Source: Nostoc sp. UHCC 0302
GTDB taxonomy: Bacteria > Cyanobacteriota > Cyanobacteriia > Cyanobacteriales > Nostocaceae
Direction of reading: 5' to 3'
Assembly: GCF_038096175.1 (NCBI RefSeq)
Contig: NZ_CP151099.1
Span: 2,730,501-2,794,500 of the forward strand
DNA length: 64,000 nt
The notes under the pieces were generated by a model. That model was not told where the DNA came from, did not search any database, and saw only the letters and a program-made list of their open reading frames with translations. The position numbers were made by a program, and so were the translations under genes. Of the stretch, positions 1,096 to 53,997 are shown in pieces. Within the stretch, counting starts at the first letter, position 1; each line of letters opens with the position of its first letter.

Positions 1096-1160
1096 TTTTA
1101 GATCAAAATGTAGGGTTCAGTTAAGCCTAAAACTCTTTGTTAATAGTCAATTTTACGAAC

Positions 1161-1205
1161 CGCATACTCCTACGGAGAAGCAAGCTATGCGTTAGCGTCT
1201 CGTTA
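1161..1205. repeat. Interspersed palindromic repeat, short copy
   Basis: The stretch reads as TCCTACGGAGAAGCAAGC followed by TATGCGTTAGCGTCTCG. These words recur, in the same or inverted order, in the repeat islands at 17.2-17.6 and 18.06-18.5 kb and near 44.17 and 44.38 kb. It is a short member of that family and encodes nothing. Confidence 0.5.
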
Positions 1206-1261
1206 GAGAAGGACGCTAAGGACGCAAAGAGAAGGAAGGAATGCTTAACTAAACTGTATTG

Positions 1262-1532
1262 GCTACAGCCTGCGCGAAACACGGAAACGTTAAGGCAGAA
1301 GCTCTTACAGTGAAGACGGAAGTTGCTACAGCTTGCGCGAAACACGGAAACGTTAAAGCAGAAGCTCTTGCAGGGAAGACGGAAGTCGTTACAGCTTGCG
1401 CGAAACACGGAAACGTTAAAGCAGAAGCTCTTGCAGGGAAGACGGAAGTCGCTACAGCCTGCGCGAAACACGGAAACGTTAAAGCAGAAGCTCTTGCAGG
1501 GAAGACGGAAGTTGCTACAGACTGCGCGAAAC
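1262..1532. repeat. 63-bp tandem repeat, four copies plus a partial fifth
   Basis: Units begin GCTACAGCYTGCGCGAAAC and start at 1262, 1325, 1388, 1451 and 1514, exactly 63 bp apart. The second to fourth units differ at only a few bases, the first is more diverged, and the fifth stops after 19 bases. Because 63 is a multiple of three and the unit has no stop in several frames, open frames with a 21-residue period appear on both strands (one plus-strand frame repeats ACAKHGNVKAEALAGKTEV). None has a convincing start site or known relative, so I call this a minisatellite rather than a gene. Confidence 0.85.
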
Positions 1533-1609
1533 TGACATACAAGGGTGTGTTGTCGCGTAACGCAACGCACCTTCAATAATTTCGTGTCTCTTGTAATACT
1601 TATTTAGCT

Positions 1610-43413: not shown

Positions 43414-43570
43414 AACAACTGCTGTTAAATATAAAGGTTTATGCTTGCTACAATTGAGGTTAACGCTTTTACGGACTGTAGCGCAATAGTCCGGCTACAG
43501 CGAGTAAACAACACACTGCACGAGAATTTCAATTGCTGACAATGGGTGCAGGCTCTCTTGAAGCCACTGT

Positions 43571-43608
43571 AATAAAAAACTGCCCAGGAGTAGAACCGGA
43601 GCAGTTTT
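43571..43608 (-). terminator. Likely intrinsic terminator (minus strand)
   Basis: Read on the minus strand, AAAACTGC and GCAGTTTT form an 8-bp stem with a ~17-base loop, followed by TTATT. It lies 128 bp downstream of the small frame ending at 43736 and would end that transcript, separating it from the pentapeptide gene. Confidence 0.5.
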
Positions 43609-43735
43609 AAGCAGTGGAATTTATATAAGGGACTTTTAGGCTGTTGTCCCTGGCTTTATATATAAGAGATTCGGTATGTAATATTCTTCAGCTAGAGTTT
43701 TGGACTTTCCAGAAAGACACAAAACAAGGCAGTTA

Positions 43736-43867
43736 TTATTCCAATTTGATATCAGGTGCTTTTACTTGACGAGTTGCCCCTCCTTGTCGATTATCAGGAA
43801 AGCCTACTTTAGGTGGTTTAAAATTACCTTGATTTTTTAACAATTGTTCTTGTTTAGCTTTTACCAC
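43736..43867 (-). CDS. Small basic protein of unknown function
   Basis: GTG 43867 has GGGAGAAGG five bases upstream, a strong ribosome-binding site. The 43-residue product reads VKAKQEQLLKNQGNFKPPKV, GFPDNRQGGATRQ and VKAPDIKLE. PP-x-x-G-x-P-x-NR-x-GGATR resembles the start of secreted cyanobacterial DUF928 proteins, but the rest of that family and any signal peptide are missing. It could be a genuine small protein or a mis-placed fragment. Confidence 0.45.
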   Translation of the reverse strand: MVKAKQEQLLKNQGNFKPPKVGFPDNRQGGATRQVKAPDIKLE

Positions 43868-44991
43868 TTTCCTTCTCCCTTGTATTTACTTAGAGTCTAG
43901 AATTAAGCTTACTTAAGGCTACAACACAAAAGCAATGTCTTATATAGAGTTATCTAGGTTGTTGTCAAGTTTTACGCAAAAGAACCAAAAACTTTGAAAG
44001 TGTCATTGCATAAGGATTTGTCGCTCTTAACCCAAGGAATGGGAACAACACCATCGGCCGAATACATGACACCCATTAGTTGTCACACATTTAGACAAGC
44101 TCTACTGTATAATTACACTGCTCTGTTGCCCCACCTAAGCCGCAATGTTCAAGCTATGTCTGGCGATCGCCGTACTCCTTCGGAGAAGCAAGCTACGTGC
44201 TAGCATCTCCATTAACGTAGCCTCTCACGAGTGGGAGAAGTCCAAGGCTTAAGAACAGCTTATCGCCATTGCAACCGTGTTTCGAGGGAGCAGCGTACAG
44301 AGCATAAATGATTAAACGCAGATAAAATCGAGAGTATAGAGATACTGCTGGGCGTTCGCCCAGGCGCATTGGCATTCGCAGAGCGTCTCGTAGAGAAGCC
44401 ATCACTCCCTTATGCATGAGAACTGCGTTGCCTTCCGGTTTAAATCACTCTGCCAGCTTTGATATGATGAGTTAGTTAGACCGAATCGCTTTCCTATGTT
44501 CACCTGAAGTACCTACATAAGCGACGCCGGACAATCAACTAATCGCCTCGACAGAATTGAGAGAAAAAAGCGAGCAAGTTGCTGCTAATCTCTAAGCAGA
44601 ATATCGCTCGTATCTGCGTACTCATCACCTTTCATCCATGAGCAATTCCAGTCTTGTCTATAATGCCGTTACCACAGTACACTCAAGAGCGATCGCTTAG
44701 GAGCGTTTCTTTTATAGCAGCGAAGATTCGGTATTTTGTTCCAACTGCTTGAGCAAAATGTATCATATTTTAATTGTTCCTTGTGAGCGCCGCTCATGGA
44801 GTCTCTTGCAAAAGTAACTTTTGCACTCTTGTGGGAAAAGGGTAAAGGTTTTTTCTTATTCCTTTCCGCCTTCCCCCTGCCCTTTTCCCCACAAGTGCCA
44901 AGAAGTCTACTGGAGACTGTTGCTAAAATAACGTGCAATCATCAGTCACAACTTTATATAATCCCTATAGAGGACTAAGCTGAAAGCAAAA
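43868..44991. other. 1.1-kb gap with repeats and a long hairpin
   Basis: No supported gene is seen. Short members of the palindromic repeat family lie near 44170-44208 (TACTCCTTCGGAGAAGCAAG) and 44350-44402 (GCAGAGCGTCTCGTAGAGAAG). At 44824-44898 CTTGTGGGAAAAGGG and CCCTTTTCCCCACAAG face each other around a 30-base loop, a long imperfect hairpin. A minus frame at 43972-44076 (MGVMYSADGVVPIPWVKSDK start) is coding-like but lacks a ribosome-binding site. Confidence 0.5.
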
Positions 44992-45339: not shown

Positions 45340-46022
45340 GGCGCGATCCTTGAGTTAAAGTTTTGTGTTTTATGCAGAAATCACGAAAAATCTTGAAACT
45401 GCCGTCACACAAGAGTTAAGCGTCAGTATCAACACCACCACCCATGTAACCCAGTCAGATGTATGACAACCATTGGTTTACATTCGTCACTCTGTGGCAT
45501 ACCATCATCAGCCTCGGATAACTCCGGGACTATTGTGTACGCTCGCTCCCAAGAGTAAAGTGCGCTATTCATCCAGCGAAGCGGTCACCTGCTCCAGAAT
45601 CCAGTTGTTTAACCTCAGATAACCCAAGGCAGTAGCACGCAGCCTGAAATAGTACATATACACTTATAATAAGCGAAAATTATCCTAAAATGGTGGTTAG
45701 AGCCAGTACAATGCTATGAATTCTACTTTTCTATTTTTTATTCTGGTCAAAATCTCATTTTTAAAATTTTGCTTTCTCGGAGCGCTTAATTGGTTTTTTA
45801 GTAAAAGTTCAAGCATTACTATTGACCTTTTTCTGATTTTCAGATGGCTAAGTAAAATTAAAATCTATTAACTTTAGTATCTATAAGTTTATGTACTAGT
45901 TTATACATTCCAATGGAAACCTCTAGTTATTTTTTTAATAGATATTAGCTATCTAGTAACTTGATAATAGCTATCTTGATTTGATAAGTGGTGTGATCTT
46001 AATCACAAGAAATAGCTTCGAA
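45340..46022. other. 680-bp gap, partly decayed sequence
   Basis: No intact gene is seen. The minus strand near 45.36-45.47 kb carries LLCDGSFKIFRDF-like coding traces related to the frame at 43972-44076. The 45.66-46.0 kb part is very AT-rich and leads into the transposase remnant. Confidence 0.35.
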
Positions 46023-46620
46023 TAGTACGGAAGGTGGAAAATATTTTGATTAAGTCAGGAGCATTCCGACTGCCTGGGAAAAAAGAGCTTTATCAACCAG
46101 CATATGAATGGAAAGTATTGGTAATAGATGTGACTGAAACACATGTGGAACGTCCAAAAAAAAACAGCGTCACTACAACAGCGGCAAGAAAAAACGTCAT
46201 ACTTTGAAAGCGCAATTGGTAGTTGACCAAGCCAGTGGCTTTCATCATCTGTACCGCTTATGGAACTGGTCGCATTCATGACTTTTGCTTACTGAAAAAC
46301 ACAAAAGTCAGATTTCATACTTCACAGTTGTGTTTAGCCGACAAAGGCTATCAAGGAATTGCTAAACTCCATACTCATAGCTGTATTCCCACGCTTATTA
46401 CCTCGTGCTACTGATTTATCGACTCCTGAACGCCACCACAATCGCAATTTAGCTCAACTGCGTGTTATTGGCGAACACATTAACCGCAGATTGAAAATTT
46501 TTCGCATTCTTAAAGAACAATATCGTAACCGCAGAAGACGCTTTGCCTTACGTTGCAATTTGATTGCTGGACTTCTCAATTATGAACTTGCTCTGTTTTC
46601 TTGATTCGTGCAAGAGGTCT
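46023..46620 (+). mobile_element. IS5-family transposase pseudogene
   Basis: Joining frames gives VENILIKSGAFRLPGKKEL, YEWKVLVIDVTETHVERPKK, SGKKKRHTLKAQLVVDQASG, TAYGTGRIHDFCLLKNTKVR, LADKGYQGI and LRVIGEHINRRLKIFRILKE ending LNYELALFS at 46604. This is the DDE core and tail of an IS5-type (DDE_4) transposase, with Asp in VIDVTET and the final Glu in VIGEH. At least three frame shifts (one in the A-run at 46155) and a missing N-terminus make it inactive. GTGCAAGAGGTCT at 46608-46620 is probably the right terminal repeat. Confidence 0.75.
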
Positions 46621-47428
46621 AATATTTAACTCTATTCCACCACGGATTACTGAGATTTTGCTGTCCGTCCATACCCCCCCAATTATTACTTCCATCTTTA
46701 TTAGTGGGGGGTGTGGACGGGAGATTAGATGACGGTCTATCTATTTCAATACCATACTGAGCCTGCATCATAGCAGCATAAGCAGCGTGACGCTCTTGCT
46801 CTTCTTGGCGTTTGCTTTCTCTCTGTTCTCGCTGCTGCTGACGATACTCTAAAACTTGTTGCACAAACGCGACAGCAAGAGTATTGAGCCGATAATACCT
46901 AACCCGTTTCCCGTCTTCCACAGGCTGCCGCGATTCGGTAGATAAACCAAGTTGCTCTAAATACTGACCCAAAACCCAGATTGGGGACTCATCAAGCGGT
47001 ATGGTGAGATTCAAAATACCCTTGATGTGCGGTGCATTGCGTTTTGAGAAATCCGCGATAAGCCTAACGGCATGGCTAACGCTTACCGCTTGAATAACTG
47101 CCTCAGTTCCCGTTACCTCAACCCCAGCGAACAAATCCATCAACACTGGCCTCAACCCCAGTCGGTGACGCATCAACCATGAGGTAGAATAATTTGTTTT
47201 GATACATTCGAGGCGCGGGACGGGCATAGTTTTACCGACCATCCTGATGTAATTCTGTTGCCACTCTAGTTTCAAACAGTGTTGGTAAAGTTCAGAGGCT
47301 TGCTGCCTTTCTAAGAAATCGAGATAGTAGGTGACTGGGAAATACCCGTACCAAATCCTTCTCTTGTACAAAAGCCAGTCGGTCATCCAAAGTAGTGGCT
47401 TCTTCCAGTGCAGGGGGCATCCACTCAA
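46619..47428 (-). CDS. Chimeric frame: AlkB-like start joined to a replication-protein-like tail
   Basis: Residues ~30-68 (VTYYLDFLERQQASELYQHC, MVGKTMPVPRLECIKT) look like the N-terminus of AlkB-type 2-oxoglutarate oxygenases. After NYSTS the resemblance ends, and from about residue 90 (LRPVLMDLFAGVEV, IKGILNLTIPLDESPIWVLG, LEQLGLS, DGKRVRYYRLNTLA, then a Gln/Arg-rich tail) it resembles the C-terminal region of cyanobacterial plasmid replication proteins. The metal-binding HxD of AlkB and any helicase part are absent. It overlaps the upstream gene by 137 bp. A deletion fusion is the simplest explanation. Confidence 0.5.
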   Translation of the reverse strand: MSGCPLHWKKPLLWMTDWLLYKRRIWYGYFPVTYYLDFLERQQASELYQHCLKLEWQQNYIRMVGKTMPVPRLECIKTNYSTSWLMRHRLGLRPVLMDLFAGVEVTGTEAVIQAVSVSHAVRLIADFSKRNAPHIKGILNLTIPLDESPIWVLGQYLEQLGLSTESRQPVEDGKRVRYYRLNTLAVAFVQQVLEYRQQQREQRESKRQEEQERHAAYAAMMQAQYGIEIDRPSSNLPSTPPTNKDGSNNWGGMDGQQNLSNPWWNRVKY

Positions 47429-47792
47429 CGTAATAGAACCAAGACCTGTTCAGTAATTGAATCCCCAGAATTAGCCGCTGCTTTGTCCACTCGTCATCGG
47501 AACGGAGTATTACGTGATCGCCTAAAACAAAAGTGGGTTTTTCAAGTGCAGCCAGTTGCATTTCCCCAGTGCCGATGATTTCATGTTCTGTGGTGTAGAT
47601 AATCTCACCAGCAGAAGCAATTGCATAAATCCATCGGTCTTGTTTCCACTGCACCCCGCAGCAGTAGCCGAATGTTCTCGAAGCTCCGACGTAGACTCGC
47701 TCCAGCAGATTGACTTCAACTGGTGGAATGCGATCGCCCCAAGGTGGGGCGATGTACCAGCACAAATAAAGTGAATTGATTTGGTCAATCAT
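47292..47792 (-). CDS. DUF1392-like cyanobacterial protein
   Basis: The 166 residues read SLYLCWYIAPPWGDRIPPVE, GASRTFGYCCGVQWKQDRWI, YAIASAGEIIYTTEHEIIGT and FVLGDHVILR, a beta-rich small protein that I place, with reserve, in the Nostoc-specific DUF1392 family common on plasmids and genomic islands. The last ~25 residues overlap the AlkB-like frame, so the natural C-terminus may be lost. Its ATG overlaps the stop of the upstream DNA-binding gene by 4 bp, giving translational coupling. Confidence 0.6.
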   Translation of the reverse strand: MIDQINSLYLCWYIAPPWGDRIPPVEVNLLERVYVGASRTFGYCCGVQWKQDRWIYAIASAGEIIYTTEHEIIGTGEMQLAALEKPTFVLGDHVILRSDDEWTKQRLILGIQLLNRSWFYYVEWMPPALEEATTLDDRLAFVQEKDLVRVFPSHLLSRFLRKAASL

Positions 47793-48199
47793 GATGCTCG
47801 TCTCCCTAACAAGTAGTTAATGGCTTCTGGGTCAATTTCGGCAATGCGCTTTTTAAGATGCTGTGGTGGGTTATCAAAAAACCTTTTAAGATGCCATTTA
47901 CGAATCTGATAATATCTAACAGAATGTCTACCATTAGATAGCCAACCGCGCCTTACCCAACCAGAAACTGTAGTACGGTGAACACAAAGAATACGCGCAA
48001 TTTCAGCAGCACTGTAGTTATCAAGAAATGGGCGTGTGGAGTAACCCAAACTCCAGAGTTTAGTAGAAATAGCATCAGGAGTGCGGAAATAGCCATGTCT
48101 TTTGAGAATTGAGGCAATTTGTTTAGGGGTATAAAGTTCAGCCTTTGCCTCAAGAATTGTGAGTTCTGCTTCAGTCCATTTTGTAGTCTTGATAATCAT
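47789..48199 (-). CDS. DNA-binding protein with two HTH-like segments
   Basis: ATG 48199 has GGAGAG 6 bases upstream, so I prefer it to the longer frame from 48301. The 136 residues read TKWTEAELTILEAKAELYTP with KQIASILKRHGYFRTPDAIS (a SANT/HTH-like start), then YSAAEIARILCVHRTTVSGW and VRRGWLSNGRHSVRYYQIRK, an excisionase/MerR-type winged HTH. A regulator or excisionase-like role in a mobile module fits. It is between the two-repeat gene and the DUF1392-like gene in one minus-strand operon. Confidence 0.7.
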   Translation of the reverse strand: MIIKTTKWTEAELTILEAKAELYTPKQIASILKRHGYFRTPDAISTKLWSLGYSTRPFLDNYSAAEIARILCVHRTTVSGWVRRGWLSNGRHSVRYYQIRKWHLKRFFDNPPQHLKKRIAEIDPEAINYLLGRRAS

Positions 48200-48216
48200 A
48201 TATAACTCTCCGAAAT

Positions 48217-48900
48217 TCATGCAGAGATAGAAGTCTTCGGAAACTGTTCTTGCACAGGTAACGTGCCTTGGTAGTACTGCTGCTTGATGTATTCGTAGCA
48301 AAGCGCGGGTGTAATGTCTCGGTAAATCTCTTGGGCGTTAATCATCACTCGCCAGTATAAATCTTCGTAGTTGTCGTAGTCGAAGCTGATACTGGCTACC
48401 AGATAACTATCAGTATGATAATCACCAATATGTACTTCTTGGTCGTAATACGAGATTTCTAAAAATGTAAGTTCTTGTACTTGTGGGATTGGTAGTGTGT
48501 TGAGTGTGCCTTGTTTGTGATGCCAAGTTATGAAGCGATGGCATCTTGCCCAAGTATTAGCGCGAAATTTCTCTACACCCTCCACCATGACTACCCAGCG
48601 TTGTGTTAAGTGGTCGTCGTCATGGGCGATGCTGGCTATCAGTTGGCTACCAGCGTAATATTCGTGATGATCAAAAGATATTTCTACAAGGGTGAGTGCT
48701 ACGGGTGCAACGGCTTGGGCTGTGGCTTGTTCGTCAGGGGTAGCTGGAGCAATCTTCTGAGCCTGGGTGGATTGATAATCAGTGATCGCGCTAATCCAAG
48801 AATCTTTGCAGCGTTTGTCGCTTACCTCCACTGTGCAGCCGATTTTGCTGTAGATTTGCTTGAGACGGGCGATGGATTTCAGTTGCAATAGTGACAACAC
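48217..48900 (-). CDS. Protein with N-terminal helix-extension-helix-like unit and two ~70-residue repeats
   Basis: GTG 48900 opens LSLLQLKSIARLKQIYSKIG then CKDSWISAITDYQ, a short helical DNA-binding-like unit seen in Nostoc island proteins. After a linker come two diverged copies: LTLVEISFDHHEYYAGSQLI to WHHKQGTL (about 72-137), and LTFLEISYYDQEVHIGDYHT to QQYYQGTLP (about 145-217). Each is a beta-meander plus a helix. I know no function for the repeats. Its first codons overlap the start of the divergent gene at 48872, an unusual arrangement. Confidence 0.65.
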   Translation of the reverse strand: MLSLLQLKSIARLKQIYSKIGCTVEVSDKRCKDSWISAITDYQSTQAQKIAPATPDEQATAQAVAPVALTLVEISFDHHEYYAGSQLIASIAHDDDHLTQRWVVMVEGVEKFRANTWARCHRFITWHHKQGTLNTLPIPQVQELTFLEISYYDQEVHIGDYHTDSYLVASISFDYDNYEDLYWRVMINAQEIYRDITPALCYEYIKQQYYQGTLPVQEQFPKTSISA

Positions 48901-49753
48901 GCCACCTGCTAGTTCTGCGGAGGATATCTTTGAGGCAGAAAACCCAGCTACAGCAACAATTACGGTTACCGCTGTTGAAATTCCAGAGTTAACCGAGCAA
49001 GAGATTCGCGATCGCCTGCATTGGAGCGAAAGGTGGAACGAGCATTTTTTGAGGCAGGAAAAGCGCTGGCAGAGTTACGCGATGGGCTTACGCCCCGCCG
49101 TAGGCGATCGCAGACTCTATCGTTCCACCCACCGCACATTTGAGGAATATTGCCGTGATAGGTTTGGTCACAGCCGCCGCCAGTCTTATCTTTTAATGGA
49201 TGCGGCTGTTGTTTTCGATAATTTGATAGAAAAATGTGATCAATTTGATCACATTTTGCCGGCAGCAGAGGGACAAGTTCGACCAATGACAAAGCTTGAA
49301 CCCCAGCAACAGCAGGAAGTGTGGCTAAAAGCGGTAGAGCAGGCAGGGGGTAAAGTGCCACCAGCTAGAATTGTTAAAAACGTAGTGCAGCAAATAATGG
49401 AACGCACCCAAGTCCCTAACAGCTACCAGCTAGGTGAAGTCTGTCAAATTCTTGCAAAGGATAATCCCGAACTCAGGGGCAAGAGCGGCTGCTGGGCGAT
49501 TGTTAGCCAAGTAAACGACTTTAGTTGTACTGTGAGAACCTGGGATGGTGAATTGACGGTTGGGGTGCAGCATTTGAAGTCTTATGATTACTTGCCGAAC
49601 GAGTGTGAGCAGATGCAGGTGATTTGCGATGGCGGAACGCCCAGCTTCGCTGATCGCATCAATCGGGTGTATTCTAGTGGGTTGGAAGAATCGGTGCAGA
49701 AGTTTTTGGAATCGTTGGGTAAGCTGAAGCGGGCTTATTTAACTGGACTGTAG
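48872..49753 (+). CDS. Cyanobacterial island/plasmid DNA-binding-like protein
   Basis: From ATG 48872 the protein has 293 residues. The central part reads WSERWNEHFLRQEKRWQSYA, RRLYRSTHRTFEEYCRDRFG and HSRRQSYLLMDAAVVFDNLI, a helical unit like that of island proteins related to ParB/phage regulators, then KVPPARIVKNVVQQIMERTQ. The C-terminal part (GEVCQILAKDNPELRGKSGC, VGVQHLKSYDYLPNE) looks like an SH3-type beta domain. It probably binds DNA and helps maintain or regulate a mobile module. It is divergent from the operon 48900-46619. Function is inferred from composition and context only. Confidence 0.6.
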   Translation: MDFSCNSDNTPPASSAEDIFEAENPATATITVTAVEIPELTEQEIRDRLHWSERWNEHFLRQEKRWQSYAMGLRPAVGDRRLYRSTHRTFEEYCRDRFGHSRRQSYLLMDAAVVFDNLIEKCDQFDHILPAAEGQVRPMTKLEPQQQQEVWLKAVEQAGGKVPPARIVKNVVQQIMERTQVPNSYQLGEVCQILAKDNPELRGKSGCWAIVSQVNDFSCTVRTWDGELTVGVQHLKSYDYLPNECEQMQVICDGGTPSFADRINRVYSSGLEESVQKFLESLGKLKRAYLTGL

Positions 49754-49911
49754 GAAAAATTGTTGAGTGTTTTAAAGTCTGAAATCAGAGTTTAGTCATC
49801 TATTTTTTTATCAAATTTATTCTCGATTACCAAACAATAAGTAATTATTTTCGGAATGAGAATTACTGTATAGTTTGAGGTATTCCAGATCAAACTCTCA
49901 AGAGTTGCTCT

Positions 49912-51888
49912 ATGATTGCTCTACCTGGTATTGCTATCCAAAGCAAAATATACGAAAGTTCTAATTCTTTGGTTTATCGGGGCATTAGAGACGATGGAGT
50001 AGCGATTGTAGTAAAAATACTAAAGCTTGATTATCCCTCACCTCAAGAACTGACCCGCTACAGACAGGAATATAAAATTACCCGTTTCCTTAACCTGGAA
50101 GGAGTGGTCAAGGCATACAGCCAGCAGGACTATCAAAGGACTCTGGCGATTCTCTTAGAAGATTTTGGGGGAGAGTCCTTAGAGCAATGGATGCACAAGC
50201 GCCCAGACATTTTCTGCCCAATGCCTTTATCGGCTTTTCTTGGTCTTGCGATCGCTAGTTGCGACATTTTGGGCAGAATTCATGCAGCTAATGTCATTCA
50301 TAAAGATATCAACCCTGGAAACATAGTCTTTAATCTGGATACTGGGGTTGTCAAAATTATTGATTTTGGGATTGCCACCCAATTTAACCGCACGAATCCG
50401 ACTTTCAAGAACCATTATGTTTTAGAAGGGACACTCGCCTACCTTTCTCCAGAGCAAACAGGACGAATGAACCGTTTGCTCGATTACCGCAGCGATTTTT
50501 ACTCGCTTGGGGTGACGTTCTACGAACTGCTAACCGGACATCTGCCGTTTAAAACAACGGACATTCTTGAGCTAGTTCATTGTCATATTGCCAAACAGCC
50601 ACCTTCACCTCATGAAATAAATACAAAGATTCCCAAACTCGTTTCAGATATCATTCTTAAACTGATGGCGAAAAATGCAGAAGATCGCTATCAGAGCGCT
50701 TGGGGAATCAAAGCGGATTTAGAACTGTGTGCTTACCAGCTAGCAGACATCGGTCAAATTAATAGCATTAAATTGGGTCAGCAAGATGTTTGGGATCAGT
50801 TTCAAATTCCCCAAAAACTATATGGAAGAGACAAAGAAGTTGCAATGTTAATGGCGGCTTTTGACCGCGTTGCTTCTTCACAAAGTTATGCAGGAAAAAC
50901 TTTAGAACAGGAACAAAATAGCAACTCAACATTCTTTGTTGAAATGATGCTGGTATCCGGCTATGCCGGAATTGGAAAATCAGCATTAGTGCAGGAGATT
51001 TATAAACCAATCACCCAAAAGCGCGGCTATTTTATCTCTGGGAAATTTGACCAATTTGGGCGCAATATTCCCTATAGCGCGATCGCAGATGCTTTGCAAA
51101 AATTGATGCAGCAACTGCTTGGTGAACCAGACGACCAGTTACAACAGTGGCGATCGCGCCTACTGACAGCTTTGGGAAGCAACGGACAAATCATCATTGA
51201 TGTGATCCCTGAAGTTGAACTGATTATTGGCAAGCAGCCGCCTGTACCAGGCGTTGGAGCTACTGAAGCTCAAAATCGCTTTAATCGTGTCTTTGGGCAT
51301 TTTGTGCGGGTGTTTTGCTCAGAGTCACACCCGTTTGTGATCTTTTTAGACGATTTGCAGTGGATAGACTCAGCGACACTTAACTTAATCGAGTTGATGC
51401 TGCTTGATGAGCAAACCCAATCGCTATTTTTGATTGGAGCCTATCGAGATAATGAGGTAAATTCAACCCATCCGTTGATGTTAACGCTAGAGAAACTCCA
51501 AAAACAAGGGGCAGTGCTTCAGGAGATAATCCTCTCACCATTAACGCTTGAGCCACTGATTCAGTTGATTTCCGAGACACTACATCAGAATGCAGACACA
51601 GTTCTTTCCTTGGCCGAGTTAGTACTGCATAAAACTGAGGGCAATCCTTTCTTTGTCGGTGAGTTTTTGAGAATGCTGCATAGCGAAAACCTGCTGACCT
51701 TTGATGCACAACACTTATGCTGGGAATGGAACATTGCTGATATTCAAGCCCAGGATATTACCGATAATGTGGTAGAGTTGCTACTGATCCAGTTAAAGAA
51801 ATTACCAGAAAATACACAGCAAATTCTCCAGTTAGCAGCTTGTATCGGTGCTGAATTTAATTTAGATACGTTAGCGATTCTATCCTAG
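49912..51888 (+). CDS. Serine/threonine kinase-AAA protein, truncated by internal deletion
   Basis: The 658 residues begin with a protein kinase: VVKILKL (Lys 35), HKDINPGN (130-137), IDFGIA (Asp 151) and EGTLAYLSPEQTGRMN. An AAA/STAND ATPase follows: Walker A SGYAGIGKSALV (349-360), FDQFGRNIPYSAIADAL and Walker B FVIFLDDLQWID (about 483). Relatives (HstK type) run to ~1800 residues with a helical region, GAF and a histidine kinase. Here the frame stops 12 bp before a histidine-kinase core in another phase. The kinase and ATPase parts look intact, but the link to the output domain is lost. Confidence 0.88.
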   Translation: MIALPGIAIQSKIYESSNSLVYRGIRDDGVAIVVKILKLDYPSPQELTRYRQEYKITRFLNLEGVVKAYSQQDYQRTLAILLEDFGGESLEQWMHKRPDIFCPMPLSAFLGLAIASCDILGRIHAANVIHKDINPGNIVFNLDTGVVKIIDFGIATQFNRTNPTFKNHYVLEGTLAYLSPEQTGRMNRLLDYRSDFYSLGVTFYELLTGHLPFKTTDILELVHCHIAKQPPSPHEINTKIPKLVSDIILKLMAKNAEDRYQSAWGIKADLELCAYQLADIGQINSIKLGQQDVWDQFQIPQKLYGRDKEVAMLMAAFDRVASSQSYAGKTLEQEQNSNSTFFVEMMLVSGYAGIGKSALVQEIYKPITQKRGYFISGKFDQFGRNIPYSAIADALQKLMQQLLGEPDDQLQQWRSRLLTALGSNGQIIIDVIPEVELIIGKQPPVPGVGATEAQNRFNRVFGHFVRVFCSESHPFVIFLDDLQWIDSATLNLIELMLLDEQTQSLFLIGAYRDNEVNSTHPLMLTLEKLQKQGAVLQEIILSPLTLEPLIQLISETLHQNADTVLSLAELVLHKTEGNPFFVGEFLRMLHSENLLTFDAQHLCWEWNIADIQAQDITDNVVELLLIQLKKLPENTQQILQLAACIGAEFNLDTLAILS

Positions 51889-51902
51889 AAGAACGCAATC
51901 GC

Positions 51903-52505
51903 ATGGCGCGAGAAATTCACGATACACTAGCCCAGTCATTCACGGGTGTTATCATTCACGCCAGAACTGCTGCGAACAAGATAACAGTAAACCCTCAAAA
52001 AGCTCAGGCTCACCTAGCTCAAGTCCAGAACTTAGCCCAAACTGGACTCTCGGAAGCACGCCGCTCTGTAGAGGCGCTACGCCGTCCCTACTTGTTAGAA
52101 AATAGTGATTTACTCAGCGCTTTCAAACATCTGACAAGTCAGCTAGAATCATCCACTGGTATAAAAATTATGTGTGAAGCCATCGGCATCCCCTATCCGC
52201 TACCCTCTGAGGTGGAAAATAATCTTCTTAGAATTGGACAGGAAGCGTTGACGAATGCACTCAAGTATGCACAAGCAACTGAAATTCGTGTTGAACTAAT
52301 CTATCAGTCCACGCAGTGCATATTACGAATTAAGGACGATGGACAGGGATTTGCAATTGATCGTTCTTTTAGTCACAATGGCTTTGGTTTATTAGGGATG
52401 GCAGAACGTGCCGAACTCATTGGAGCACAGATCCAGATCCAGAGTGCCCCCGGACAAGGAACAGAAATTGCGGTGTCCGTGAATCAGCAAGAAAAACCAT
52501 CATGA
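51903..52505 (+). CDS. NarL-type histidine kinase core (detached output domain)
   Basis: The 200 residues start at once with MAREIHDTLAQSFTGVIIH, the HisKA_3 box with the phospho-His, then GLSEARRSVEALRRPYL and the HATPase: RIGQEALTNALKYAQA, RIKDDGQGF and GFGLLGMAERAELIGAQIQI. No sensor domain precedes it. The codons just upstream (LEERNR in the same phase) belong to the same protein family, so it is the tail of the kinase gene at 49912, put out of frame by a deletion. It may still be translated from ATG 51903. It overlaps the response regulator gene by 4 bp. Confidence 0.85.
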   Translation: MAREIHDTLAQSFTGVIIHARTAANKITVNPQKAQAHLAQVQNLAQTGLSEARRSVEALRRPYLLENSDLLSAFKHLTSQLESSTGIKIMCEAIGIPYPLPSEVENNLLRIGQEALTNALKYAQATEIRVELIYQSTQCILRIKDDGQGFAIDRSFSHNGFGLLGMAERAELIGAQIQIQSAPGQGTEIAVSVNQQEKPS

Positions 52506-53131
52506 GTCAACTTAATACCATTCATGTTTTGGTTGTAGACGATCACCCCGTTGTACGTCAGGGTTTGGTTGCGATGCTGGAAGAAGCGCCAGATATCCTT
52601 GTTGTTGGACAAGCTGGGAATGGTCAGGAGGCACTCGCTGTCTTTCGTCAAGAACAGCCAGATGTAACTTTAATGGACTTGCGAATGCCCCAGATGGATG
52701 GAGTCGCTGCGATTACTGCCATCTGCACCGAGTTTCCTGCTGCTCGGATCATCGTATTGACGACTTACGAGGGCGATGAAGACATTTATCAGGGATTGCG
52801 AGCAGGGGCTAAAGGGTATTTACTCAAGGATGCCGAGCCAAAAGAATTGCTGTCCGCGATTCGTGCCGTTCACAAAGGACAGAAGCACATTCCACCCCGC
52901 GTCGGTGCCAAACTTTTAGAGCGCATGGCAAGTCCAGAATTGAGCGATCGCGAGTTAGAGGTGCTTCAACTCATTACAACGGGCAAGAGTACCCAAGCCA
53001 TTAGCAAGGCTCTATATATTACTGAACGCACTGTCAACTTTCATGTCAATCATATTTTAAGTAAGCTGGGCGTGGAGGATCGCACTCAGGCTGTAATCGT
53101 TGCGTTAAGGCGTGGCATTGTTAACTTATAG
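52502..53131 (+). CDS. NarL/FixJ-family response regulator
   Basis: The 209 residues have a receiver domain (VLVVDDHPVVRQGL, phospho-Asp in LMDLRMPQMDG about residue 58, Lys in YLLKDAEP) and a LuxR-type HTH (LSDRELEVLQLITTGKSTQA, TERTVNFHVNHILSKLGVED). All key residues are present. ATGA coupling to the HisKA_3 kinase makes them a two-component pair. The first genes it could control are the redox/detoxification genes that follow from 53461. Confidence 0.92.
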   Translation: MSQLNTIHVLVVDDHPVVRQGLVAMLEEAPDILVVGQAGNGQEALAVFRQEQPDVTLMDLRMPQMDGVAAITAICTEFPAARIIVLTTYEGDEDIYQGLRAGAKGYLLKDAEPKELLSAIRAVHKGQKHIPPRVGAKLLERMASPELSDRELEVLQLITTGKSTQAISKALYITERTVNFHVNHILSKLGVEDRTQAVIVALRRGIVNL

Positions 53132-53234
53132 CGTCATACCTGTCAAATTTGTCAGTTTATTAGCTGTCTAAATTGTCAGCTTATCAACTGAAGTTTTTCT
53201 CAGCGACAAAATCGAGTGAACCCTCTAAATTGAG

Positions 53235-53345
53235 GGCGTTGCTGAATTTGAGTATGAAAGTCAAAAATTCAATCTCTCAAACTCTTATTCTCTGTGCCTC
53301 TGCGGCTCTGCGTGATACAAATTCATATCTTTACCCAGCAATGCC
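53235..53345. mobile_element. 111-bp MITE-like element, copy 2, with 8-bp target duplication
   Basis: The sequence equals 25345-25455 over all 111 bp as read. It is flanked directly by AAATTGAG on both sides, a perfect 8-bp target-site duplication, which fixes the element's ends at GGCGTTGCTG and CAGCAATGCC. It lies between the response regulator and the DsbA-like gene. Confidence 0.92.
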
Positions 53346-53460
53346 AAATTGAGTTTATGCAACAGATAACAGAGCCAAATCAATCTGTCCAATTTTGAAA
53401 AAGGTTTCATAGCAATCATCTGTCTTTACCTGCTGCACTCCTTTCCTTAGAGGTGCTTTC

Positions 53461-53997
53461 ATGAGTCTTGGTGATTATAATCGGTTACTTGTGCCGATTT
53501 TAGAACAAGATCATATTCAGGGATTGGTAAGTACTTCAGTAGTACTCGTAGAATATGGTGACTACCAGTGTCCCACTTGCGGCGAAGCTCACCAATTAAT
53601 CAAAGCAATCCAGCAACAGGTCAATGACTTGTGTTTTGTATTTCGCCACTTTCCACAGCCGCAAATACATCCTTATGCTCAACGTGCAGCTGAAGCAGCC
53701 CAAGCGGCAGCCACCCAAGGCCAGTTTTGGCAGATGCACGACATTTTGTTTACCCATCAACAAGAGTTAGGAAACGATTATCTTGTGGAGTATGCCAATA
53801 ATCTAGGACTCGATATTCCCCAATTTCTGCAAGATATATCCAGCCAAGTACACATAGCGCACATTAATCAAGATATAGAAAGTGGATTACACAGTGGAGT
53901 AACGGCTGCCCCAGCTTTATTTATTAATGGAATTCGATATAGCGATCGCTGGAACAGTGAGCAGTTGATGGCAGCCATTGCCACTGCAAGTCATTAA
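53461..53997 (+). CDS. DsbA-family thioredoxin-fold protein
   Basis: The 178 residues have VLVEYGDYQCPTCGEAHQLI with the C-P-T-C active site (about 36-39), FVFRHFPQPQIHPYAQRAAE, a helical insert, and the cis-Pro loop GVTAAPALFINGIRY. There is no signal peptide, so it is probably cytosolic, like the bacterial DSBA/FrnE-type oxidoreductases of stress islands. AGGAGG-like bases (TTAGAGG) precede the ATG. It opens the enzyme island that runs to 63.7 kb. Confidence 0.88.
   Translation: MSLGDYNRLLVPILEQDHIQGLVSTSVVLVEYGDYQCPTCGEAHQLIKAIQQQVNDLCFVFRHFPQPQIHPYAQRAAEAAQAAATQGQFWQMHDILFTHQQELGNDYLVEYANNLGLDIPQFLQDISSQVHIAHINQDIESGLHSGVTAAPALFINGIRYSDRWNSEQLMAAIATASH

Follow-up and report, generated by a model that had tools for sequence, protein, structure and literature searches.

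A reading-frame cluster in the chromosome of Nostoc sp. UHCC 0302 is very probably the eroded core of a large plasmid

The locus described here is a group of five reading frames in Nostoc sp. UHCC 0302. It lies in a window of 64,000 nucleotides (nt; contig NZ_CP151099.1, positions 2,730,501 to 2,794,500), by which we mean the whole stretch analysed and to which all plain coordinates below refer. The source genome comprises 9.59 Mb in nine contigs. The window belongs to the 8.39 Mb contig (called C1), and the other contigs with relatives of the region are plasmid-sized (C2, 383 kb; C3, 358 kb; C4, 283 kb). An initial annotation described four packed, overlapping frames on the minus strand, divergent from a frame on the plus strand. 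All five frames are present in the sequence where that annotation placed them, and the overlaps between them are real (Table 1). They encode a chimera, a DUF1392 protein, a helix-turn-helix (HTH) protein, a 227-residue protein with two copies of one unit (visible on inspection and in tblastn, where it gives two stretches) and a protein that we call ParB-like as a working label. The DUF1392 assignment was correct, as a family search matched the protein to PF07154 over positions 1-150 of 150 (209 bits versus a cut-off of 25). The HTH protein scored 26.7 bits against HTH_17, just below the cut-off of 27, and neither the two-repeat nor the ParB-like frame matched a Pfam family at E 1.

Searching the strain's own genome with window 46600-49800 yielded 54 matches, the window itself counted; the best match elsewhere (E 5e-306) is far beyond chance. 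Alignment to these copies splits the region into pieces A, B, C, D/E and F. Contigs C2 and C4 and a longer chromosomal copy (L009, at 3.10 Mb of C1) harbour the pieces in the same order and orientation, with wider spacing. The C3 copy has all pieces except A, with D/E only in part. The matches and the alignment of the pieces rule out a chance overlap of frames. The region is of plasmid origin, and it is unlikely to form a working module. We put at roughly 93% the probability that this stretch is the eroded core of a large plasmid of a kind common in Nostoc, now located in the chromosome, with no working module likely to be left.

Table 1. Positions of reading frames, aligned pieces, joints and flanking features in the window
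Feature	Position	Strand	Description
Chimeric frame	46619-47428	-	269 aa, TTG start; order: out-of-frame DUF1392 DNA, AlkB fragment, CyRepA1 fragment
DUF1392 gene	47292-47792	-	Frame of 166 aa; 150-residue domain complete
HTH frame	47789-48301	-	170 aa
Two-repeat frame	48217-48900	-	227 aa; gene remnant 48217-48888
ParB-like frame	48860-49753	+	297 aa
Piece A	46620-47194	-	CyRepA1 part; 89% identical DNA at C2:168813-169387
Piece B	47202-47345	-	AlkB part, AlkB residues in 47202-47341; 94% identical DNA in L009
Piece C	47344-48243	-	Alignment to own-genome copies
Piece D/E	48234-48887	-	Alignment to own-genome copies
Piece F	48889 (or 48937, by copy) to ~49794	+	Alignment to own-genome copies
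Joint A/B	47195-47201		6-7 nt unplaced filler; missing 4.05 kb (vs L009) or 5.9 kb (vs C2)
Joint B/C	47342-47351		0-2 nt overlap in best copies; missing 1.27-1.54 kb (five copies)
Joint C/D	48234-48251		~13 nt shared by both sides; missing 2.38-2.60 kb (three copies)
Joint E/F	48887-48889		Ends abut, 0-1 nt; missing 0.68-0.89 kb (three copies)
Insertion sequence (IS) remnant	46019-46627	+	98.9% identical 610-bp copy at C1:3749134-3749743; right end cuts CyRepA1 fragment
Kinase-ATPase/histidine-kinase gene, two halves	49912-52505	+	Long-frame paralogues L078, L079; plasmid neighbours
Response regulator and DsbA genes	52502-53997	+	Follow kinase in same order on three Nostoc plasmids

The DNA missing at the four joints amounts to ~8-11 kb in total. 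The loss at joint B/C took the start of AlkB and a KilA-N or hypothetical gene, and several small genes are among the DNA gone at joint C/D. At joint E/F, the two divergent genes have lost their start codons and the DNA that separated them, together with an XRE gene relative to those copies that have one. Judging by their sequences, the joints resemble the products of illegitimate recombination rather than those of one site-specific process. We considered that the extra DNA might instead have been inserted in the plasmids. This was rejected because C2 carries full frames for AlkB (197 aa) and CyRepA1 (1163 aa), and other genomes have the long form, whereas both are fragmentary in the window. 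The tight packing, the frame overlaps and the chimera are accounted for by their location at deletion joints. Thus, the compactness that had suggested a functional module reflects loss: the chimeric, two-repeat and ParB-like genes are broken, and the tail of DUF1392 is replaced.

The chimera had been described as an AlkB-like start joined to a replication-protein-like end, and tblastn supported both parts, with matches to AlkB from residue 14 onward (E 4e-26) and to CyRepA1 residues 931-1105 (E 2e-79). The former part corresponds to residues ~15-59 of 197-199 and the latter to the same residues, 931-1105, of the 1163-aa C2 copy. Each fragment is kept in its native frame, and the two are fused in frame, for which the chance is one in three. 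The TTG start is not native, because the frame upstream of AlkB consists of DUF1392 DNA read out of frame. Both gene ends are missing from the CyRepA1 fragment; the plasmid copies continue past residue 1105, and the window frame stops at the border of the IS remnant. The latter contains transposase fragments (DDE_Tnp_4, 29.8 bits versus a cut-off of 24.8), and its assignment to the IS5 family is taken from the annotation of relatives. Against the CyRepA1 model NF042913, the chimera scores 14.1 bits, below the cut-off of 200, and covers profile positions 528-595 of 595, the C-terminal part. It has no DUF3854 domain, which is present in the C2 CyRepA1 copy, and no match to the AlkB dioxygenase family PF13532, for which the C2 AlkB copy scores 104 bits. 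A weak match to the phage replication family phrog_4913 (E 8e-6) spans profile positions 1122-1192 of 1290. The exact 29-base string across joint A/B was not found in the collection of genome contigs searched, which may not include the own genome. In the CyRepA1 part, an insertion at ~47055-47091 adds the residues VSVSHAVRL, and relatives contain further occurrences of its DNA, with match lengths of 23-42 nt. This insertion and those at 49079-49103 and 49628-49651 are short, lie in coding pieces and keep or restore the frame.

The divergent pair carries further damage. In the longer copies, several hundred bases separate the two-repeat and ParB-like genes, in some cases with an XRE regulator gene between them. 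In the window, the two frames overlap by 41 nt, the scar of joint E/F. The two-repeat gene lacks its start codon and ~10 N-terminal residues. Alignment of the ParB-like gene with four copies revealed a replaced 5' end, an early stop and a 1-nt loss followed ~60 nt on by a 25-nt insertion, the block between these two (~49021-49103) being frameshifted, as well as a further 24-nt insertion at ~49628-49651. By these lesions the gene is a predicted pseudogene. Fifteen Pfam families are listed for 33 ParB-like relatives, with no ParB family among these. One of the 33 (L155:1396-2343) matches the start of AIPR with its C-terminal part (E 3e-18), apparently a further case of a fused gene end among these plasmids. 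The structure model of the ParB-like protein is poor (pLDDT 46, pTM 0.26; 33 alignment rows including L155 with its foreign AIPR end). The natural end of DUF1392 is replaced by ~16 foreign residues, the domain being full length. The HTH gene alone looks apparently intact: as its likely start, the starts of its relatives favour the ATG at 48197-48199 over the TTG at 48301, giving a protein of 136 aa (47789-48199), and the tblastn alignment with a plasmid relative of 132 aa spans residues 3-132 of the latter.

Private codon changes were counted as replacement:silent. The ratio is 18:21 over the four window fragments (DUF1392 6:4, HTH 0:1, AlkB 1:2, CyRepA1 11:14) and 7:24 in the C2a copy (Fisher p 0.048). 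The other copies gave 1:4 (C2b, two fragments), 0:5 (C3, three), 2:3 (C4, three) and 1:1 (C2c, one), and the C1 copy 3:4 without or 31:28 with its more distant HTH (28:24). These counts weakly suggest relaxed constraint. Inspection by eye of the HTH protein showed N in the window versus T in three other copies. Several observations weigh against the interpretation as an eroded plasmid core. The p value of the codon test is marginal, its comparator was chosen by us, and the remaining copies have too few changes or are more distant; moreover, the greater part of the window's branch may be older than the decay, and no fragment of the window is visibly free of constraint by codon counts. The chimera has no internal stop across 269 codons. 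Finally, none of the matches listed in 59 related genomes spans joint A/B (15 of these genomes had matches elsewhere in the query), and they therefore give no guide to how old the joint is or whether it was retained.

We propose that a large Nostoc-type plasmid, or a big part of one, entered the chromosome. Its core, with CyRepA1, the AlkB-type dioxygenase, DUF1392, DNA-binding proteins and the divergent ParB-like protein, would have lost at least four internal blocks, probably by ordinary illegitimate recombination, which needs hardly any homology and fits the joints, and an IS element would have cut it at the left end. The homology, the gene order, the missing DNA and the broken genes are observed; the direction from plasmid to chromosome, the way in which the deletions arose and the loss of function are inferred. 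The AlkB/CyRepA1 joint may have stayed in frame by chance, giving rise to the chimera. Joint E/F would have removed the start codons along with the DNA between the divergent genes, where the promoters must have been. A puzzling chimera thereby becomes a case of plasmid erosion in a chromosome, the steps of which are readable at the base level.

Other scenarios were weighed against this one. The apparently intact HTH gene, the full-length DUF1392 domain and the in-frame AlkB-CyRepA1 joint are features expected if the HTH, DUF1392, two-repeat and chimeric genes formed a streamlined working module kept by selection, perhaps as a means of regulating or excluding related plasmids, of which the three related plasmid-sized contigs of the same genome would be possible targets. 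However, the divergent start codons and the region between them are gone, the ParB-like gene is shifted and shortened, the chimera lacks DUF3854 and most of AlkB, and no other copy of its joint was found, leaving this scenario a slim chance. Slimmer still is the chance of a domesticated plasmid-control locus, in which the HTH protein, DUF1392 and the C-terminal fragment of CyRepA1 would target the replication region of related resident or incoming plasmids and so lower their copy number or exclude them. As for the assembly, paralogous plasmid copies might have been collapsed into false joints, near copies being numerous in this genome (the 54 matches above, window counted). Yet the contig is 8.39 Mb long, and one joint has filler and another abuts without homology, unlike a collapse. 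In addition, the pieces are not misplaced copies, because the best other copy of each differs by ~6% or more. Such an artefact is very remote.

The initial annotation also considered that the genes could be a mobile or defence module. A mobile origin stands, in the form of a plasmid. As to anti-phage defence or a toxin-antitoxin system, the clustering of unnamed small genes, the domains that intact relatives share with defence-listed families and the AIPR segment of L155 would fit, but none of the five window proteins matched PADLOC at E 0.001 (best values 0.015 and 0.019). Among ten intact plasmid relatives, three did so, over shared domains: AlkB matched CARF_2OG in its 2OG part (E 3e-35), the KilA-N gene matched PDC-S22 (E 9e-4), and the hypothetical gene matched an HTH model (E 7e-15) and, partially, BstA (E 1e-5). 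These matches do not make the window a defence module, because in it the hypothetical and KilA-N genes are absent and AlkB is fragmentary. Furthermore, the L155 segment looks like a fused end, and the neighbouring genes are those found around a plasmid replication gene. We thus rejected a defence module, to which we give hardly any credence. Of the alternative 'plasmid- or phage-like', the first half holds, the relatives being found together and in the same order on Nostoc plasmids. The second was rejected on searches with two proteins: DUF1392 and ParB-like, the only queries, had no match in 50,697 phage records, nor did DUF1392 in viral contigs.

From named plasmids and the DUF1392 loci of this analysis, we defined the core order as divergent ParB-like, two-repeat, small genes, HTH, DUF1392, KilA-N or hypothetical, AlkB and CyRepA1. 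The window pieces agree with its gene order and orientation; an intact replication gene and an intact region between the divergent genes, which the core requires, are lacking. The proposed search for the same gene order on plasmids was successful in Nostoc, where the genes do occur together. When intact proteins were compared by tblastn with 72,556 plasmid records, matches were found in 26 (DUF1392), 18 (HTH), 33 (two-repeat), 85 (AlkB) and 86 (ParB-like) records; those of the first three are all named as genera that we take to be Nostocales. The DUF1392 and two-repeat genes are at most 10 kb apart in at least 13 of the 25 records with both, and they share a strand in every case. A distance of up to 10 kb also separates the two-repeat gene from the ParB-like gene in at least 17 of 28, always on opposite strands. 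These are lower bounds, as only the best place per record was used and records hold several places. The latter count took in 29 of the 86 ParB-like records, and three more in which the genes are ~30 kb apart bring it to 17 of 31.

A similar picture emerged when GTDB genomes were scanned with an alignment of DUF1392 and the best 80 of the 124 relatives were kept; the loci being chosen by DUF1392, the counts show what accompanies this gene, not how common the core is. At 53 loci of other genomes with at least 5 kb of the relevant flank, the two-repeat gene is present at 52, the divergent ParB-like gene at 47 and both at 46, with HTH (39), 272-aa hypothetical (33) and XRE (18) genes on the same side. 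The other flank, examined at 56 loci with at least 4 kb, contains a KilA-N or hypothetical gene at 54, AlkB at 47 and CyRepA1 at 38. Some loci devoid of CyRepA1 have an HTH-DnaB block. L025, L026 and several of L088-L167 code for an HTH protein and a DnaB helicase in the CyRepA1 position, and on p057_A the DnaB parts are split by genes annotated as TnsA, transposase, ATP-binding protein and TniQ, in the manner of a Tn7-type insertion. DUF1392 is present in 75 of 217 genomes of the taxonomic family (own genome included, with 14 matches), compared with 0 of 14 control genomes.

DUF1392, a family without known role, is hence part of a core conserved among large Nostoc plasmids, beside CyRepA1 or, in some, a DnaB-type block. 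This context, of modest interest, offers a place to look for the function of the family, in replication, copy control or maintenance. Searches of open-licence literature found no paper that names DUF1392 and no account of this plasmid core. The structure model of DUF1392 is middling (pLDDT 68, pTM 0.57; 38-55 for the other four models) and predicts, with middling confidence, two SH3-like barrels. Foldseek returned nothing at E 0.001, its first rows being mostly Tudor, Agenet and KOW-type barrels. The best VIA-align Z score, 8.5 over 58 residues, was obtained with a chromo-barrel and, as the tool warns, perhaps denotes a common arrangement only. A sequence search of solved structures gave best E values of 0.19 (ParB-like) and 0.6 (DUF1392).

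Downstream of the ParB-like gene, the kinase halves (49912-51888 and 51903-52505) represent one gene of ~2000 codons from which 3.4 kb are missing at 51879. On the plasmids pNsp_a, pn2 and p057_G, kinase, response regulator and DsbA genes come after a ParB-like gene, as in the window, and their kinases are 80-86% identical in protein; pNsp_a is typed as conjugative. This shared order indicates that the plasmid-derived block reaches at least ~54 kb, past which the oxidoreductase genes match pNsp_a/pn2 only in part. Three paralogous kinase-regulator-DsbA blocks (L078, L079, L084) occur elsewhere in the chromosome; the site of the 3.4-kb loss in the window copy is 51864-51903. The left flank (43436-44590) matches C4:134.9-137.2 kb in order, with gaps. 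Of the other chromosomal copies, L009 (C1:3098000-3117000) is a longer plasmid core, and its CyRepA1 changes frame near residue 492. L016 (C1:878000-890000) is a second remnant that has shrunk in a different way; its DUF1392 and ParB-like pieces lie ~430 bp apart at 879-885 kb, beside a kinase paralogue. Far from these genes, window 1127-1576 contains a 149-aa minus-strand frame of short repeats, near-identical by eye.

Among known systems, CyRepA1 is described as the replication protein of the Synechocystis 6803 plasmid pSYSA (PMC10899382). Piece A comes from the C-terminal part of this family, without the DUF3854 part. The plasmids pNsp_a of Nostoc sp. ATCC 53789 (NZ_CP046704) and pn2 of Nostoc sp. 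UHCC 0926 (NZ_CP117770) have the two-repeat, ParB-like, kinase, response regulator and DsbA genes ordered as in the window. Their kinase is one long frame, in contrast with the split gene of the window. The oxidoreductases shared with the window are GMC on both plasmids and SDR on pNsp_a, and the part of pNsp_a examined has no DUF1392 match. Finally, pC052_D (NZ_CP040276) codes for CyRepA1, AlkB, a hypothetical protein, DUF1392, HTH, small proteins, the two-repeat protein and divergent XRE and ParB-like proteins, in the same order and orientation as the window. Compared with it, at least four blocks are missing from the window, CyRepA1 and AlkB survive there only as fragments, and the DNA that separates the divergent genes is gone.

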